64,000 nucleotides of DNA, taken from positions 6,448,001 to 6,512,000 of the forward strand of contig NZ_CP114283.1 in the NCBI RefSeq assembly GCF_027107535.1, given 5' to 3'. The notes under the pieces are model-generated. The model worked only from the letters and a program-made list of their open reading frames with translations. It had not been told where the DNA came from and made no database searches. The position numbers and the translations under genes are program-made. Source of the DNA: Streptomyces aurantiacus (lineage in GTDB: Bacteria; Actinomycetota; Actinomycetes; Streptomycetales; Streptomycetaceae). Position 1 is the stretch's first letter; the number at the start of each line of letters is the position of its first letter. Below, piece by piece: positions 38,896 through 45,252 of this stretch.

Positions 38896-39828
38896 TCAGC
38901 CGGTCAGGCCGGCCTTCGTGAGCCACTCCTCGGCGACGTCGGCGGAGTCCTCCTTGTCGTTGACGAGCTTCTTCATCATCTGCAGGAGGTCCTCGGTCGT
39001 GAGCTTGGCCGAGATGGCGTTGAGAGCCGCCTTGGCCTTCGCGTTCACCGCGGACTTGTAGACGAGGGGTGTGACGTTCTGCGAGGAGAAGAGGTTCTTC
39101 GGGTCCTCCAGGACGACCAGCTTGTCCTCGACGATGGCCGGGTCGGTCGTGTAGAGGTTGGCCGCCTGGACCTTGTCGTCCTTCAGCAGCTTCACCAGGG
39201 TGCTCTGGGCGCCCGCGTCCAGAGGCTGGAACTTCCCGAACTCGACGCCGTAGACCGCCTTGAGGCCCACCCCGCCCTGCGTACGGGTCTTGAACTCCGA
39301 GCCGGCGCCGATGGTCATGTCCTTCGCGACCGGCTTCAGGTCGGCGAGGCTCTTGAGCTTGTACCTGGCGGCGGTCTCGGCGGTGACGGAGACCGAGTCC
39401 TTGTCCTCGGCCGTGGCGGAGTCGAGTATCTCCACCGACTTCGGGAGCTTCTGCTTCAGTTCGGCGTTGATGTCCTCCGTGGTGGCGGCGGTGCTCTTCT
39501 TGTCGACCGCCGTGGACAGCAGCGCGCCGTTGTACTCGGGGAAGACCCCGATGCCGCCCTTGACCACCTGGTCGTAATAGACCTCGCGGGCACCGATGTC
39601 GAACTTGCGGGTCACCTTCAGGCCCTTGTCCTCCAGGGCCTGGGCGTAGATCTCGGCGAGGAGCTGGTTCTCGGGGAAGTTCGCCGAGCCGACGACGATG
39701 GACTTGCCCCCTCCGCTGTCGCCGCTGCCGCCCGTCAGCGGGTTGTCGTCGCTGTCGCTCCCGCCGCAGGCGGTCAGGGAGAGAGCGGCGATCATGCCGA
39801 AGGCGGTGGCGCGGAACGTGGCTTTCAT
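38896..39828 (-). CDS. Betaine/osmoprotectant-type ABC importer binding lipoprotein (OpuCC/ProX type)
   Basis: A 310-residue solute-binding protein. The lipobox is in ALSLTACGG. The mature part starts IVVGSANFPENQLLAEIYAQALEDKGLKV, the signature of the OpuC/OsmX group, followed by GGIGVFPEYNGALLS and DAGAQSTLVKLLKDDKVQAANLYTTDPAI. Such proteins bind quaternary amines through aromatic cages; glycine betaine, choline, carnitine and also ergothioneine importers use this type. ATG 39828 follows AAAGGAA. Last gene of the importer operon. Confidence 0.92.
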   Translation of the reverse strand: MKATFRATAFGMIAALSLTACGGSDSDDNPLTGGSGDSGGGKSIVVGSANFPENQLLAEIYAQALEDKGLKVTRKFDIGAREVYYDQVVKGGIGVFPEYNGALLSTAVDKKSTAATTEDINAELKQKLPKSVEILDSATAEDKDSVSVTAETAARYKLKSLADLKPVAKDMTIGAGSEFKTRTQGGVGLKAVYGVEFGKFQPLDAGAQSTLVKLLKDDKVQAANLYTTDPAIVEDKLVVLEDPKNLFSSQNVTPLVYKSAVNAKAKAALNAISAKLTTEDLLQMMKKLVNDKEDSADVAEEWLTKAGLTG

Positions 39829-39896: not shown

Positions 39897-40586
39897 TCAG
39901 GATCGTCTCACCGACGGCCGCAGACCCGGCGAGACGACGACGTGCCGCAGCGCGGTGAAGAGGGCCTGGACGACCAGCGCCAGCGCGACGACGACGGTGG
40001 AACCGCCGATGACCAGTTCGTAGTCGTTGCGGGCGAGCCCGTCGACGATGAAGCGGCCCAGACCGCCCAGACCGGGGTACGCGGCGACGGTGGCCGTGGC
40101 CACGACCTGGATCGCGGCGACCCTCAGGCCGAGCAGGATCAGCGGCAGCGCCATCGGCACCTCGACCTTCAGCAGGACCTCCCAGCCGGTCATGCCCATC
40201 CCCTTCGCGGCGTCCCGGGCGTCGGGATCCACGCCCCGGACTCCTTCGAAGGTGTTGATGAGGATCGGCGGGACCGCCAGCGCCACCAGGGCGACCAGTA
40301 CGGGAGTGGTGCTGAGCCCGGCGAGGGTCACGACGAGTACGACCAGGCCGAAGGTGGGGATCGCCCGCGCGAGGTTCGCGACACTGGCGACGGCGAACGC
40401 GCCTCGGCCGGTGTGTCCGACGAGCAGCCCGAACGTCAGCCCGATCAGGGTCGCGAACAGCAGTGACACGCCGCTGTAGGTGAGGTGTTCCGTGAGCCGG
40501 TGCGGGATGCCGTCGTCGCCGCGCCACTGCTGGGACGACGTCAGCCAGTCGCCCACGAGCCGGATCTGGTTCAGGAGGTCGTTCAC
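39897..40586 (-). CDS. Betaine-type ABC importer permease 2
   Basis: A 229-residue ProW/OpuCD-type permease with five or six helices. Typical segments are SVANLARAIPTFGLVVLVV, the EAA loop ARDAAKGMGMTGWEVLLKVEVPMALPLILLGLRV, and VVATATVAAYPGLGGLGRFIVDGLARND. The GTG start overlaps the stop of the first permease (GTGA at 40583-40586). Works with the ATPase and first permease to import the cargo of the binding protein. Confidence 0.92.
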   Translation of the reverse strand: MNDLLNQIRLVGDWLTSSQQWRGDDGIPHRLTEHLTYSGVSLLFATLIGLTFGLLVGHTGRGAFAVASVANLARAIPTFGLVVLVVTLAGLSTTPVLVALVALAVPPILINTFEGVRGVDPDARDAAKGMGMTGWEVLLKVEVPMALPLILLGLRVAAIQVVATATVAAYPGLGGLGRFIVDGLARNDYELVIGGSTVVVALALVVQALFTALRHVVVSPGLRPSVRRS

Positions 40587-41248
40587 GCCTTCGCCCCCTT
40601 GCCGCGCGCCCAGGGTGTGAGCAGCCGCTGCGCCAGGACCAGCAGCGCGTCGGTGACGAGGGCCAGCAGCATGATCAGTACGGTCGCGGTGATGATCGGG
40701 GTCGGGAAGTCGAGCTGGAGGCCCCGGGTGATGTAGTAGCCGAGGCCGCCCTGTCCGATCAGCTGCCCCACCGCGACGAGGCTGATGGAGGAGACCGCCG
40801 CGACCCGCACACCGGCGACGACGACGGGCACGGCGATCGGCAGTTCGACCTGGACGACCCGCCGGACCGTACTGAATCCCATCGCGGTGGCCGCCTGCCG
40901 TACCGGATCGGGGACGGATGCCAGTCCGTCCACGACGTTGGGTATGAGCACCGACAGCGTGTAGAGGGTCAGCGGGATCATGACGGTGCGTTCGGTCAGG
41001 CCCGTGTAGCGGACGAAGATCATGAACAGGGCCAGCGACGGAATGGAGTACAGGACGTTGGCCGCGGTCAGCGTCGGCGGGTAGACCCACCGCCAGCGGT
41101 GGCAGAGGATGCCCAGGGGTATCGAGATGATCAGTCCGAACAGCACGGGCAGAAGGCCCAGCCGCAGGTGGACCCCGGTGTAGTGGGCCAGTTCACCGAG
41201 GTGGTCGCCGATCCACACCCACCGTACGAGCGGTTCTCCGTCTCTCAT
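40583..41248 (-). CDS. Betaine-type ABC importer permease 1
   Basis: A 221-residue ProW/OpuCB-type permease. LTAANVLYSIPSLALFMIFVRYTGL and the EAA loop VRQAATAMGFSTVRRVVQVELPIAVPVVVAGVRVA are the family hallmarks, with ISLVAVGQLIGQGGLGYYITRGLQLD near the end. It overlaps the ATPase stop by 4 bases, so the four importer genes form a tightly coupled operon. Confidence 0.92.
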   Translation of the reverse strand: MRDGEPLVRWVWIGDHLGELAHYTGVHLRLGLLPVLFGLIISIPLGILCHRWRWVYPPTLTAANVLYSIPSLALFMIFVRYTGLTERTVMIPLTLYTLSVLIPNVVDGLASVPDPVRQAATAMGFSTVRRVVQVELPIAVPVVVAGVRVAAVSSISLVAVGQLIGQGGLGYYITRGLQLDFPTPIITATVLIMLLALVTDALLVLAQRLLTPWARGKGAKA

Positions 41249-42498
41249 CGGTCCCCACCGCCCGTGGTGTCGGCACGCTCGGCGCCCTGCGCGGCCGGGT
41301 CGTCCTCGGCGGACCGGGCCCCGGACGCCTTGGCCGTCCTGTCCGCCTCGGCCGCCTCCGGCGCTTCGGCCGGCTCGGCCGCTGCGGTCGCGGCGCCTGC
41401 CGCCGCGCCGCCGTCTCCCGTCATCGCGGCGGACAGCTCGTACGCGTCCGCGACGCCGGCGACCGCGCCCTGGGCGTCCACTCCCACCGCCAGCCTGGAG
41501 GGCGACAGGAGCGCCGCGTCGAGGGCGGCCCGCGCCGAGTCTCCGACCAGGCTGAACGTGTGGCCGAGCGGTGCCAGGGCTGCGTCCGCGAGGGTTCCGC
41601 CGTCCGGGAGTCCGGCGGCGAAGACCCAGCCGAGCGGACGCCGGCCGGCGTCGACGACGAGCACCCAGGGCTCGTCCAGGGCCCGGGCCGCGGCCACGGG
41701 GTCGGTCACCGGCAGCACCGGGCCCTCGCGCAGCGGCAGTCCGGCGGCCTCGACGAAGGAGAGCCGGCGAATGCCCCGGTCCTGCCCGACGAAGTCGGCC
41801 ACGAAGTCGTCGGCGGGCCGGGCGAGCAACCGCTCCGGGGTGTCGAACTGCGCGAGCCTGCCGCCGGTCCGGAACACCGCGATGTTGTCGCCCAGCTTGA
41901 TCGCCTCGTCGATGTCGTGGGTGACGAACACGATCGTCTTGTGCAGCTCCTTCTGCAGCCGGAGGAACTCCGCCTGCAGTTCCGCCCGGACTATGGGGTC
42001 GACCGCGCTGAACGGCTCGTCCATGAGCAGCACCGGCGGGTCGGCGCCCAGCGCCCGGGCCACCCCGACGCGCTGCTGCTGCCCTCCGGAGAGCTGGTAG
42101 GGGTAGCGCTTGGCCATCTCGGCCGGCAGCCCCACCAGCTCGAGCAGCTCGGACGCCCGCGCCCGGGCCTTCTTCTTGCCCCAGCCCAGCAGCAGCGGCA
42201 CGGTCGCTATGTTGTCCAGGACCGTGCGGTGCGGGAACAGGCCGGCGTGCTGGATCACGTAGCCGATCCCCCTGCGCAGTTCGGGGGCGGCGACCTCCCG
42301 TATGTCCCGGCCGCGCAGGCTGACCGTGCCGGCCGTCGGGTCCACCATGCGGTTGACCATGCGCAGGGTCGTGGTCTTGCCGCAGCCGGAAGGGCCGACC
42401 AGGACCGTGATGCCTCCCTCGGCCAGCTCAAGGGACAGTTCGTCCACGGCTGTGGTGCCGTTGGGATAGTTTTTGCTCACCGCGTCGAATCTGATCAA
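41245..42498 (-). CDS. Betaine-type ABC importer ATPase (OpuCA/ProV type)
   Basis: A 417-residue ATPase. Walker A GPSGCGKTT (about 35-43), the Q-loop YVIQHAGLFPHRTV, signature LSGGQQQRVGVARAL, and Walker B VLLMDEPFSAVDPI. After residue ~250 comes a CBS-like segment (VLPVTDPVAAARALDEPWVLVVDAG... and LAVGVDAQGAVAGVADAYEL) used for ionic-strength or nucleotide sensing in OpuA-type systems, then an Ala/Glu-rich tail of about 60 residues with no known role. First gene of the importer operon; divergent from the lyase operon with only 119 bases between. Confidence 0.93.
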   Translation of the reverse strand: MIRFDAVSKNYPNGTTAVDELSLELAEGGITVLVGPSGCGKTTTLRMVNRMVDPTAGTVSLRGRDIREVAAPELRRGIGYVIQHAGLFPHRTVLDNIATVPLLLGWGKKKARARASELLELVGLPAEMAKRYPYQLSGGQQQRVGVARALGADPPVLLMDEPFSAVDPIVRAELQAEFLRLQKELHKTIVFVTHDIDEAIKLGDNIAVFRTGGRLAQFDTPERLLARPADDFVADFVGQDRGIRRLSFVEAAGLPLREGPVLPVTDPVAAARALDEPWVLVVDAGRRPLGWVFAAGLPDGGTLADAALAPLGHTFSLVGDSARAALDAALLSPSRLAVGVDAQGAVAGVADAYELSAAMTGDGGAAAGAATAAAEPAEAPEAAEADRTAKASGARSAEDDPAAQGAERADTTGGGDR

Positions 42499-42617: not shown

Positions 42618-42803
42618 ATGAGCCCGAATGACCCGGTCTGGTTCACGTTCCTGAACGGTTCGGACATCGAACCACGGGTGCGCCTCACACCCCACACCAC
42701 CTTCACCGGCCACTTCGACGTCCTGCACGGACACGTCGGCCCGCACGGCCTGACCGACGGGGCCCAGAAGCGCGGTCTCGGCCGGAAGCTGCGTTTCTCA
42801 TGA
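42618..42803 (+). CDS. Small conserved-looking protein (61 aa), unknown function
   Basis: A small soluble protein starting MSPNDPVWFTFLNGSDIE and ending KRGLGRKLRFS. It has no membrane segment, signal or recognised domain. The central part is rich in His/Thr (LTPHTTFTGHFDVLHGHVGPHG), with five His in about 20 residues, which could bind a metal. Its stop overlaps the ATG of the ammonia-lyase homologue (ATGA), so translation is coupled and a partner role for the lyase is plausible. A start upstream at 42528 is possible but would run through the promoter region. Confidence 0.6.
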   Translation: MSPNDPVWFTFLNGSDIEPRVRLTPHTTFTGHFDVLHGHVGPHGLTDGAQKRGLGRKLRFS

Positions 42804-44350
42804 CACGCCCCTACCCCGCCGGTCCCGGAGCAGTGATCGTCGACGGGCGCACCCTGTCCTGCGAGGACGTCGCCGCCGTCGCCCTGCACGGGGCCCGGGT
42901 CGCCCTCGCGGACGAGGTACTCCCCCGGCTCGCGCGCGACCGCGCGGTCGTCGACGACGTGGTCGACCGCCAGGTGCCGACGTACGGCCTGACGACGGGG
43001 CTCGGCAGCCGCTCGACCTACGCGCTTCCGCGTGCCGAACTCGCGCGGTTCAGCGTGCGTACCGTGCGCGGGCGGGCCAACGCGGTCGGGGACCCGCTGC
43101 CGGCCCCCGTCGTACGCGCCGCCCTGGCCGCCCGCGTCAACGGTCTGGCGGGCGGCGGCAGCGGAGTCCGGCCGGAGATCCTGTCACTGCTCGTCGGCAT
43201 GCTCAACGCGCGCATCCATCCGCTGGTCCCCGAGGTCGGGTCGATCGGCGCGTCGGACCTGTGCCAGATGGCCCATGTCGGCCTCGTCGTCATCGGTGAG
43301 GGCCGCGCCGAGCTCCACGGCGAGGTGCTCGACGGCGCGGCGGCGCTGCGGCGTGCCGGGCTGGCACCCGCCGAGCCGGGCCCGAAGGACGGACACGTGC
43401 TGTGCAGTGCGAGCCCCCTGGCCGCCGGCCAGGGCGGCCTCGCCCTCCATGAGACGGCCGCCGCCCTCACCCTCACCCAGGCCGTCACGACACTCACCTT
43501 CGAGGGCTTCCGGGCCAACACCGGTCCGCTGGACGCCCGGGTGCTGGGCCTGCGCCCCGCGCCCGGACAGTCCCGGGCGGCCGCGGAACTGCTCGCGTTC
43601 CTGGGCGGCGGTGAACTCACGGATCCCCGCCGGGCACGGCGGGTCCAGGATCCGGTGAGCCTGCGCTGTGCGGCGCAGGTGCACGGTGCGCTGCATGCCG
43701 CGCTCGACTTCGCCCACGCGGCCCTGGAACCCGAGCTCAACGGCAGCGGCGACAACCCGGTGGTCCTGGCCGGCACCGGTGAGATCCTCTCCTCGGGCAA
43801 CTTCCACACCCCGGCGCTCGCCCTGGCCTTCGACACCCTCGCGCTGGCCCTGACGCAGACCGCGGCGCTCTCCGCCGAGCGCATGCGGCGCCTGCTCGAC
43901 CCGGCCCTCAGCGGGCTGCCGGCCAACCTCTCCCCGTACGGCCCGGAGCGTTCCGGCTTCGCACCACTGGCCAAGACGGCGCAGGCACTGGTCGCCGAGA
44001 TCCGCGTACTGTCCGCGCCGGTGTGCACCGATCCCCGGCACGGCGCGGACGGGGTCGAGGACGACTCGACCAACGCGGCGCTCGGCGCGCGGCGGCTGTC
44101 GACGATGCTCGTCCGGCTGCGGCAACTGCTCGCCGTGGAGGCGCTGGCCGCCGCCCAGGCGGTGGACCTGGCCGCGCCCGCCGCCCTCGGGCGGGGACCC
44201 GGCGTCCTGCGCCACGCGATCCGCGAGCTCGTCCCGCGCCTGGACGACGACCGGCCCTGCGGACCGGACGTGGACCGGGTGAGCCGTGATGTCCTGGGGT
44301 CCGACGAGGTACGAGGCGCCCTGCGCGCCCTGACGGAAGGAGCCGCGTGA
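42800..44350 (+). CDS. Aromatic ammonia-lyase (HAL/PAL) homologue lacking the MIO glycine
   Basis: A 516-residue protein of the histidine/phenylalanine ammonia-lyase fold. Conserved parts are YGLTTGLGS with the catalytic-type Tyr62, NGSGDNPVV, SGNFHTPALALAFD and ALAAAQAVDLAAP. The cofactor loop is odd: family members read GSVGASGDLAPLAH and make the MIO group from Ala-Ser-Gly, but here it is GSIGASDLCQMAH, one residue shorter, with Asp153 after Ser152. Normal MIO formation is therefore not expected. A non-MIO elimination, for instance of a good leaving group such as trimethylamine, would fit the betaine importer next door. It is coupled to the small protein before and the amidohydrolase after by 4-base overlaps. 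Confidence 0.85.
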   Translation: MTRPYPAGPGAVIVDGRTLSCEDVAAVALHGARVALADEVLPRLARDRAVVDDVVDRQVPTYGLTTGLGSRSTYALPRAELARFSVRTVRGRANAVGDPLPAPVVRAALAARVNGLAGGGSGVRPEILSLLVGMLNARIHPLVPEVGSIGASDLCQMAHVGLVVIGEGRAELHGEVLDGAAALRRAGLAPAEPGPKDGHVLCSASPLAAGQGGLALHETAAALTLTQAVTTLTFEGFRANTGPLDARVLGLRPAPGQSRAAAELLAFLGGGELTDPRRARRVQDPVSLRCAAQVHGALHAALDFAHAALEPELNGSGDNPVVLAGTGEILSSGNFHTPALALAFDTLALALTQTAALSAERMRRLLDPALSGLPANLSPYGPERSGFAPLAKTAQALVAEIRVLSAPVCTDPRHGADGVEDDSTNAALGARRLSTMLVRLRQLLAVEALAAAQAVDLAAPAALGRGPGVLRHAIRELVPRLDDDRPCGPDVDRVSRDVLGSDEVRGALRALTEGAA

Positions 44351-45252
44351 CCAACGTCGACGTACACCAGCATCTGTGGACCGACTCGTTCGTCGCGGCC
44401 CTGCGGGCGCGCGCCGAGCCGCCGTTCCTCGACGGCTGGACCCTGCACACCGCCGGTGAGCCGCCCTACGAGGTGCCGCGCGCCGACCACGACGTCGCCC
44501 GGCGCTGCGAACTGGCGGCGGCCGACGGCCTCGGCCGGGCGCTGGTCTCGCTGTCCGCCCCGCTCGGTGTGGAGTGGCTGCCGTCCGGACAGTCGCGGCC
44601 GCTGCTCGACGCCTACCACGAGGACGCGGCCGCGCTGCCCCCGCCCTTCGGTGCCTGGGCCGCCGCCTGTGTCCGGGACATCGACCCCGATGTGACGGCC
44701 GGCGTCCTCGACCGGGGATTCGCCGGCCTCCAGCTGCCGGCGAACGCCCTGGCGGACGCGGCCGGTTACGCGCGGTGCGCACCGCTGCTGGACCTGCTCG
44801 AGGTACGCGGCCTTCCGCTGTTCGTGCACCCCGGTCCCGCGGCCGGGGCGTCCCCGGGGCCCGGCTGGTGGCCCGCGATGGTGCCGTACGTGCAGCAGAT
44901 GCACGCCGCCTGGTTCGCGTTCCGGGCGTTCGGCCGGCCCCGTCATCCACGCCTGCGGGTGTGCTTCGCGCTGCTGGCCGGCCTGGCGCCCCTGCACGGG
45001 GAGCGCTTCGCCGCCCGCGGCGGGGCGGAGGGCCGCCCGGAGACCGACCCGGACGTGTTCGTCGAGACCTCCTCGTACGGTCCGCGCGCCGTCGAGGCGG
45101 TCGTCCGCGTCCTCGGCACCGACGTGCTCGTCCAGGGTTCGGACCGGCCCTACGCCGAACCTCCGCAGAGCCCCGGTTTCGGACTGGGCGGCGCCGCGGC
45201 GTACGCCTTCCGCATCGCCAATCCGCGTCGCCTGCTCACCGGCGAGGCCTGA
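44347..45252 (+). CDS. Amidohydrolase-superfamily (TIM-barrel) hydrolase
   Basis: A 301-residue member of the amidohydrolase-2 group. The N-terminal metal motif is VDVHQHLW, a later strand His is in GLPLFVHPGP, and the late Asp is in LVQGSDRPYAEP. The set fits a mononuclear metal hydrolase or decarboxylase. The usual third His after helix 5 is not obvious, as in several divergent members. The start overlaps the stop of the lyase homologue (GTGA). It probably acts on the lyase product, for example opening a ring amide or removing a carboxylate. Substrate not identifiable. Confidence 0.8.
   Translation: MTNVDVHQHLWTDSFVAALRARAEPPFLDGWTLHTAGEPPYEVPRADHDVARRCELAAADGLGRALVSLSAPLGVEWLPSGQSRPLLDAYHEDAAALPPPFGAWAAACVRDIDPDVTAGVLDRGFAGLQLPANALADAAGYARCAPLLDLLEVRGLPLFVHPGPAAGASPGPGWWPAMVPYVQQMHAAWFAFRAFGRPRHPRLRVCFALLAGLAPLHGERFAARGGAEGRPETDPDVFVETSSYGPRAVEAVVRVLGTDVLVQGSDRPYAEPPQSPGFGLGGAAAYAFRIANPRRLLTGEA

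Follow-up and report, generated by a model that had tools for sequence, protein, structure and literature searches.

A short-loop lyase of Streptomyces aurantiacus from a probably MIO-independent clade distinct from ergothionase

The 64,000-nt stretch of the Streptomyces aurantiacus chromosome analysed here (NZ_CP114283.1, positions 6,448,001 to 6,512,000; the window, in whose coordinates features are given below) encodes at 42800..44350 (+) a 516-aa protein of the aromatic-amino-acid-lyase fold. Its counterpart of the loop that forms the cofactor 4-methylideneimidazole-5-one (MIO) in histidine, phenylalanine and tyrosine ammonia-lyases (HAL, PAL and TAL) is one residue short and lacks the MIO-forming glycine. 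The protein belongs to a group of homologues, the AS clade, that is probably MIO-independent like ergothionase, yet distinct from that enzyme in phylogeny, active site and gene neighbourhood, and probably new. We lean, by a narrow measure, towards the view that it is an MIO-independent C-N lyase that most likely eliminates trimethylamine from an imported, ergothioneine-derived histidine betaine. The AS clade would also offer a natural test of the HAL/PAL/TAL fold working without its cofactor.

The shortened MIO loop

An earlier note on this DNA had reported a loop reading Ala151-Ser152-Asp153, one residue short and without the MIO glycine, and both the DNA itself and an alignment with HAL bear this out. 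Positions 43247-43261 read GGC GCG TCG GAC CTG, or G150-A151-S152-D153-L154, with A151, S152 and D153 encoded at 43250-43258 inside the loop GSIGASDLCQMAH (43238..43276, +). This loop has 13 residues and that of Pseudomonas putida HAL, GSVGASGDLAPLAH, has 14; GSVGASGDL of HAL becomes GSIGAS-DL in the window lyase (in full GSIGAS-DLCQMAH), so that HAL G144 faces a one-residue gap. The ergothionase loop SSIGEGDITTLSH, aligned from PDB 6s7j, is shortened equally.

The AS clade was sampled as 120 rows, namely the window protein and its 119 best-listed homologues (the best 120 of 2141 above threshold). The loop is short in 120/120 rows, glycine occupies the third position in 0/120, and the serine, kept in 115, is also gone in the other five, which read GAAD; the lyases of loci L007 and L011 (comparison loci are numbered with an L throughout), with GAADL, have lost both the MIO serine and the MIO glycine. 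Since every row is short and none has the glycine, a chance event and a sequencing error, the latter being what a glycine in close homologues would have meant according to the earlier note, are excluded, and since the serine is lost as well in five rows, MIO formation in the window lyase is, on sequence grounds, very unlikely. Ser-to-Ala mutants of two PALs, which lack MIO, lose activity according to two reports (PMC3903478; PMC12535398). Ergothionase, which the note had named as an MIO-independent relative, is indeed a relative of solved structure and is stated to be without MIO in PMC13405746. It was the only MIO-free enzyme of the HAL/PAL/TAL fold that we found described in the literature searched, and no description of the AS clade was found in that literature, which omits most subscription journals.

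Fold and active site

By profile search the open reading frame matches PF00221 with 436.8 bits, and its best NCBIfam models are hutH (388.3 bits) and PRK09367 (389.1 bits), both below their cut-offs (539.15 and 524). A structure prediction, also proposed in the earlier note, gave a confident model (pLDDT 92, pTM 0.92) with its lowest Foldseek E-value against 6s7j, the ergothionase (ergothioneine trimethylamine-lyase) of Treponema denticola, whose fold it shares (PDB 6s7j/6s7q, TM 0.88/0.92). The fold is likewise that of HutH (PDB 1b8f, 7tqr), of which the equivalents of Tyr53, Arg283, Glu414 and Phe329 are present.

That the rest of the fold is kept, as the note had it, holds for Tyr62 (HAL Tyr53) and for the NGSGDNP and NFHTP segments, both of which are present, but not for the whole active site. 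In HAL numbering, Y53, R283 and E414 correspond to Y62, R289 and E420 of the window lyase, and H83, N195, Y280 and V386 are replaced by R92, S203, V286 and K392. Five positions are invariant across the 120 AS-clade rows, Y53, R83, R283, K386 and E414; they include Arg92 (codon at 43073..43075, +), which stands in place of His83, and Lys392 (codon at 43973..43975, +), which is equivalent to ergothionase Lys384 and to Val386 of P. putida HAL. Position 195 is Ser or Gly in these rows, position 280 is Val, Ile or Leu, and position 197 is Ser in 120/120. In 17 MIO-type rows, a set without any PDB entry for PAL or TAL, Asn195 and Tyr280 are universal and position 386 is Val, Tyr or Phe, with Lys in 0/17. 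Asn195 and Tyr280 have a role in MIO-dependent HAL, PAL and TAL. A lysine close to the substrate is mentioned for an MIO-dependent PAL in PMC12535398.

The likeness to ergothionase thus comprises the loop length, the lysine, the equivalents of Tyr53, Arg283 and Glu414, and an aliphatic residue in place of HAL Tyr280 in both proteins. The differences are a sequence identity of only about 30%, a loop with E-G in ergothionase and A-S here, His against Arg at position 83, and Asn against Ser at position 197. Of 767 ergothionase homologues, the best 120 all have His83 and Asn197, and 115 of these 120 have Lys386. His83 is also kept in P. putida HAL and in the compared members of two further short-loop groups, QA and TG; L027, another PF00221 protein of the same genome, has Val there. 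Lys384 is reportedly one of the essential (catalytic) residues of ergothionase.

Phylogeny

In an unrooted tree of 47 rows, run with and without the loop columns, a 100/100 branch set the 15 MIO rows apart from the short-loop sequences in both cases. The short-loop sequences formed four groups with support of 100/98 or better: AS (window lyase, 12 rows), EG (ergothionase, 12), QA (GQAD, 5) and TG (GTGD, 3). The AS and ergothionase clades are separate, each with 100/100, which also holds without the loop columns, and the branching order among the short-loop clades is weakly supported (53/44 in the tree with loop columns). At least three clades beyond ergothionase, AS, QA and TG, therefore carry a shortened loop, and two of them lie beside OpuC-type ATP-binding cassette (ABC) transporters in this one genome.

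We considered a simple identity with ergothionase and rejected it, given the separate clade, the Arg for His at position 83 and the lack of a nearby thiourocanate hydratase gene (NF058530). The single match to that model in the genome scores 648.7 bits, below the cut-off of 930, and lies more than 2 Mb away (C2:8731534). Nor is the protein a typical HutH, since the MIO triad is missing, Asn195, Tyr280 and His83 are replaced, and the scores fall short of the hutH cut-offs. Many AS-clade members nevertheless carry the database name histidine ammonia-lyase, which points to a misannotated family of probable betaine lyases. The lyase is present at 80% identity or more in 3 of 37 Streptomyces genomes (its own and 36 others).

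Gene neighbourhood

Twenty-five loci were found, of which L024 was dropped as encoding an MIO-type enzyme; counts over the remaining 24 related loci are lower bounds, since some contigs end early. The start codon of a 301-aa Amidohydro_2-type (ACMSD-like) protein (44347..45252, +), from a candidate ergothioneine-sulfinate desulfinase family, overlaps the lyase stop codon. It has no Pfam or NCBIfam match at 0.01 and matches ACMSD in the PDB only at E about 0.001, but its orthologue L019:2986-3921 matches PF04909 with 32.2 bits. A full copy occurs in 19/24 loci, directly downstream of the lyase in 17 and about 7 kb off in L017 and L019, with a fragment in one more; in the Streptomyces locus L012 (at 10525) the gene has shrunk to a 59-residue match.

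Divergent from the lyase lies an ABC transporter gene set comprising a ProV/OpuC-type ATPase (41245..42498, -; TIGR01186 300.4 bits, below the cut-off of 326.6), two permeases (40583..41248, -, and 39897..40586, -, the second with a GTG start), assigned from synteny and from weak choline/betaine permease matches that are all below cut-off, and a lipoprotein-type substrate-binding protein of the OpuAC/EgtU family (38896..39828, -; PF04069 161.9 bits), whose relatives include EgtUC and ProX. A homologue of the ATPase (61-98% identity) is found within the lyase cluster in 20/24 loci.

Directly upstream of the lyase in 16/24 loci is a full gene of the ornithine cyclodeaminase/mu-crystallin family (332-336 aa), with a partial copy in two. 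In the window only a remnant is left (42618..42803, +), with two in-frame internal deletions as judged by eye against L006; it ends just before the lyase start, and the 98% relative L001 likewise has only a partial copy. The genome holds no full copy elsewhere, its best other match being 33% identical. An RpiR regulator is present in 11/24 loci, and neither the gene nor a remnant of it was found in the window. Cysteine-dioxygenase-like cupins lie near the lyase in 5/24 loci (L003, L004, L017, L019 and L023), and HutU is next to the lyase cluster in L003 and L023. In L003 (11398-16834; likewise L023, 11392-16850) the AS cluster is adjoined by hutU, a GntR gene, a 3-hydroxyacyl-CoA-dehydrogenase-like gene, a QA-type lyase and the dioxygenase-like cupin.

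Link to ergothioneine dioxygenase

The Prauserella cupin L019:3911-4489 matches PDB entries 8qfl-8qfr with E values of 3e-66 to 6e-65, against 2e-4 or weaker for mammalian-type cysteine dioxygenase. A structure search with its model identified 8qfl-8qfr as the ergothioneine dioxygenase of Thermocatellispora tengchongensis, at 61-65% identity. The Actinophytocola protein shares 79% identity with the Prauserella cupin; the L003 cupin is distant from 8qfl-8qfr (1.4e-15), and those of L004 and L023 resemble the L003 protein. Dioxygenase, amidohydrolase and AS lyase thus stand together in the Prauserella and Actinophytocola clusters.

The close ergothioneine-dioxygenase type was found in 8 of the 197 genomes of the class searched, and in 8/8 the gene adjoining it is an amidohydrolase homologue; in five genomes this is 62-65% identical to the window protein, and in the other three it shares 55-58% identity with the L019 orthologue. 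The Seebeck group reportedly described in 2024 such an ergothioneine dioxygenase acting with a metal-dependent sulfinate desulfinase to give hercynine and SO2. The adjoining amidohydrolase is a candidate for that desulfinase, and the lyase would be extra to the two enzymes of this pathway.

One actinobacterial locus, L085 (3908-18986), holds a broad set of genes spanning ergothioneine to Hut, in which short-loop lyases of two kinds occur: an ABC transporter, a TG lyase, the dioxygenase, the amidohydrolase, an Arg/Lys-type short-loop lyase, a cyclodeaminase homologue, RpiR and HutU, together with an MIO-type HutH-like gene that is truncated where the locus ends. L084 has the dioxygenase, the amidohydrolase and a TG lyase, and the other six of the eight dioxygenase genomes have no short-loop lyase within the stretches fetched. 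S. aurantiacus itself encodes EgtD (384.6 bits, cut-off 290.9).

Proposed function and alternatives

Taken together, the neighbouring genes suggest a link of the lyase to an ergothioneine-type betaine. We propose that the divergent OpuC-type transporter would bring in an ergothioneine-derived histidine betaine, from which the lyase would release trimethylamine, which leaves far more readily than ammonia. Tyr62 would take the beta proton, Arg289 would hold the carboxylate, and Glu420 and Lys392 may activate the ring. The combination of Arg92 with Lys392 in the AS clade, set against His elsewhere, fits an anionic ring substituent such as a sulfinate or sulfonate, so the preferred substrate may be ergothioneine oxidised at sulfur; the amidohydrolase, which is translationally coupled to the lyase, could next strip the sulfinate to yield urocanate for the Hut route. 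More speculatively, the AS clade may be a new MIO-free trimethylamine-lyase subfamily for S-oxidised ergothioneine, in which Arg92 and Lys392 replace the MIO electrophile, trimethylamine leaves before the sulfur, and oxidised ergothioneine is salvaged without an ergothioneine dioxygenase, but we offer this only as a tentative extension that is rather unlikely to hold in full. If the ergothioneine link is true, soil actinomycetes have ergothioneine-breaking steps in addition to the dioxygenase pair, and trimethylamine is one of their products.

Several observations weigh against the histidine-betaine proposal. HAL entries equal ergothionase by TM-score and VIA-align in spite of the latter's lowest Foldseek E-value, and the best PDB match of the lyase by sequence is 7tqr, an MIO-type HAL. 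The genome gave 0 ergothioneine dioxygenase matches at E<=1e-45, its best cysteine-dioxygenase-like matches being 34% and 38% identical. The cyclodeaminase-family partner has no clear part in the proposed pathway, and a quick tree places the Arg/Lys lyases of other loci outside the AS clade. Finally, the quaternary-amine cage of the binding protein appears to be partly replaced. This protein belongs to the same family as those of the EgtU/OpuC-type quaternary-amine transporters and, aligned to 7s7w rather than to EgtU itself, with residue roles taken from PMC9732360, it appears to retain the equivalents of EgtU Glu375 and Arg379. The counterparts of Asn339 and Tyr341 both appear to be Asp, so that Asn-x-Tyr would read Asp-x-Asp, and that of Tyr443 appears to be Gln.

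Hercynine is a competing substrate that we regard as improbable, though worth serious thought. Here the amidohydrolase would make hercynine from ergothioneine sulfinate and the lyase would convert it directly to urocanate and trimethylamine. The amidohydrolase family accompanies the dioxygenase type whether or not a lyase is close by, which implies that desulfination could come first, and the HutU genes adjoining the cluster in L003 and L023 also count in favour of this reading. The invariant Arg at position 83 argues otherwise, as P. putida HAL, all sampled ergothionase homologues and the compared QA and TG rows have His; the TG-type lyase, which keeps this His and accompanies dioxygenase and amidohydrolase in L084, is the better candidate for hercynine.

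We rank next, as distinctly improbable, an MIO-free lyase acting on some other imported amine, with the cyclodeaminase-family enzyme in the same pathway. Speaking for it are the acidic residues that replace part of the binding-protein cage, the cyclodeaminase homologue, which in L085 and L092 also accompanies the Arg/Lys lyases, and the position of such lyases outside the AS clade; in L092 and L093 an Arg/Lys-type lyase lies beside an ABC transporter, and neither the dioxygenase nor this amidohydrolase occurs in the 19 kb fetched. The constant company of amidohydrolase and dioxygenase in the eight genomes, the dioxygenase-like cupins near five AS lyases and the lysine common to ergothionase and the AS clade all speak for the ergothioneine-derived betaine instead.

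It is very unlikely that the protein is a pseudoenzyme, an inactive relative decaying like the adjacent cyclodeaminase gene, even though only a remnant of that gene is left and the RpiR gene of other loci was not found in the window. The ratio of nonsynonymous to synonymous substitution rates (dN/dS) for the lyase is 0.146 against L001 and 0.209 against L002 (0.146-0.235 over L001, L002 and L006); the amidohydrolase gives 0.160-0.168 in comparison with L001 and L002. By this measure the lyase gene is under purifying selection, and the equivalents of Tyr53, Arg283 and Glu414 are retained in every row. An ordinary MIO-dependent ammonia-lyase, whether through a sequence error or with MIO made from Ala-Ser-Asp, is hardly credible: the serine of most rows and the 7tqr match would allow it, but the loop is short throughout, five rows lack the serine, and the Asn195 and Tyr280 of all MIO-type rows are both replaced.

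Other short-loop lyases

The genome encodes four PF00221 proteins: L026 (MIO-type and HutH-like, with Cys-Ser-Gly in GSLGCSGDL), L027 (Thr-Ser-Gly), the window lyase, and L029 (TG-type). The second MIO-less lyase, of TG type, lies at L054:16362-18005 (C2:8740364-8742004, -) and has the loop GSVGTGDIAALAQ. A second OpuC-type ABC transporter lies next to it in divergent orientation, and hutU, the only urocanase-type match in the genome, is no more than about 9 kb away. The RpiR protein encoded beside this lyase shares 75% identity with its counterpart in the L006 AS cluster. We regard the TG-type lyase as a candidate hercynine trimethylamine-lyase. Of 101 Streptomyces genomes searched, 43, this one among them, encode TG-like proteins (E<=1e-90), with the loop checked in four.

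A QA-type short-loop lyase at L055:10236-11834 (+), near hutU and an MIO-type HutH, is a candidate for another histidine-betaine lyase; the binding protein of the ABC transporter near it retains the classical betaine cage. Two more genes in its vicinity look hut-like by eye.
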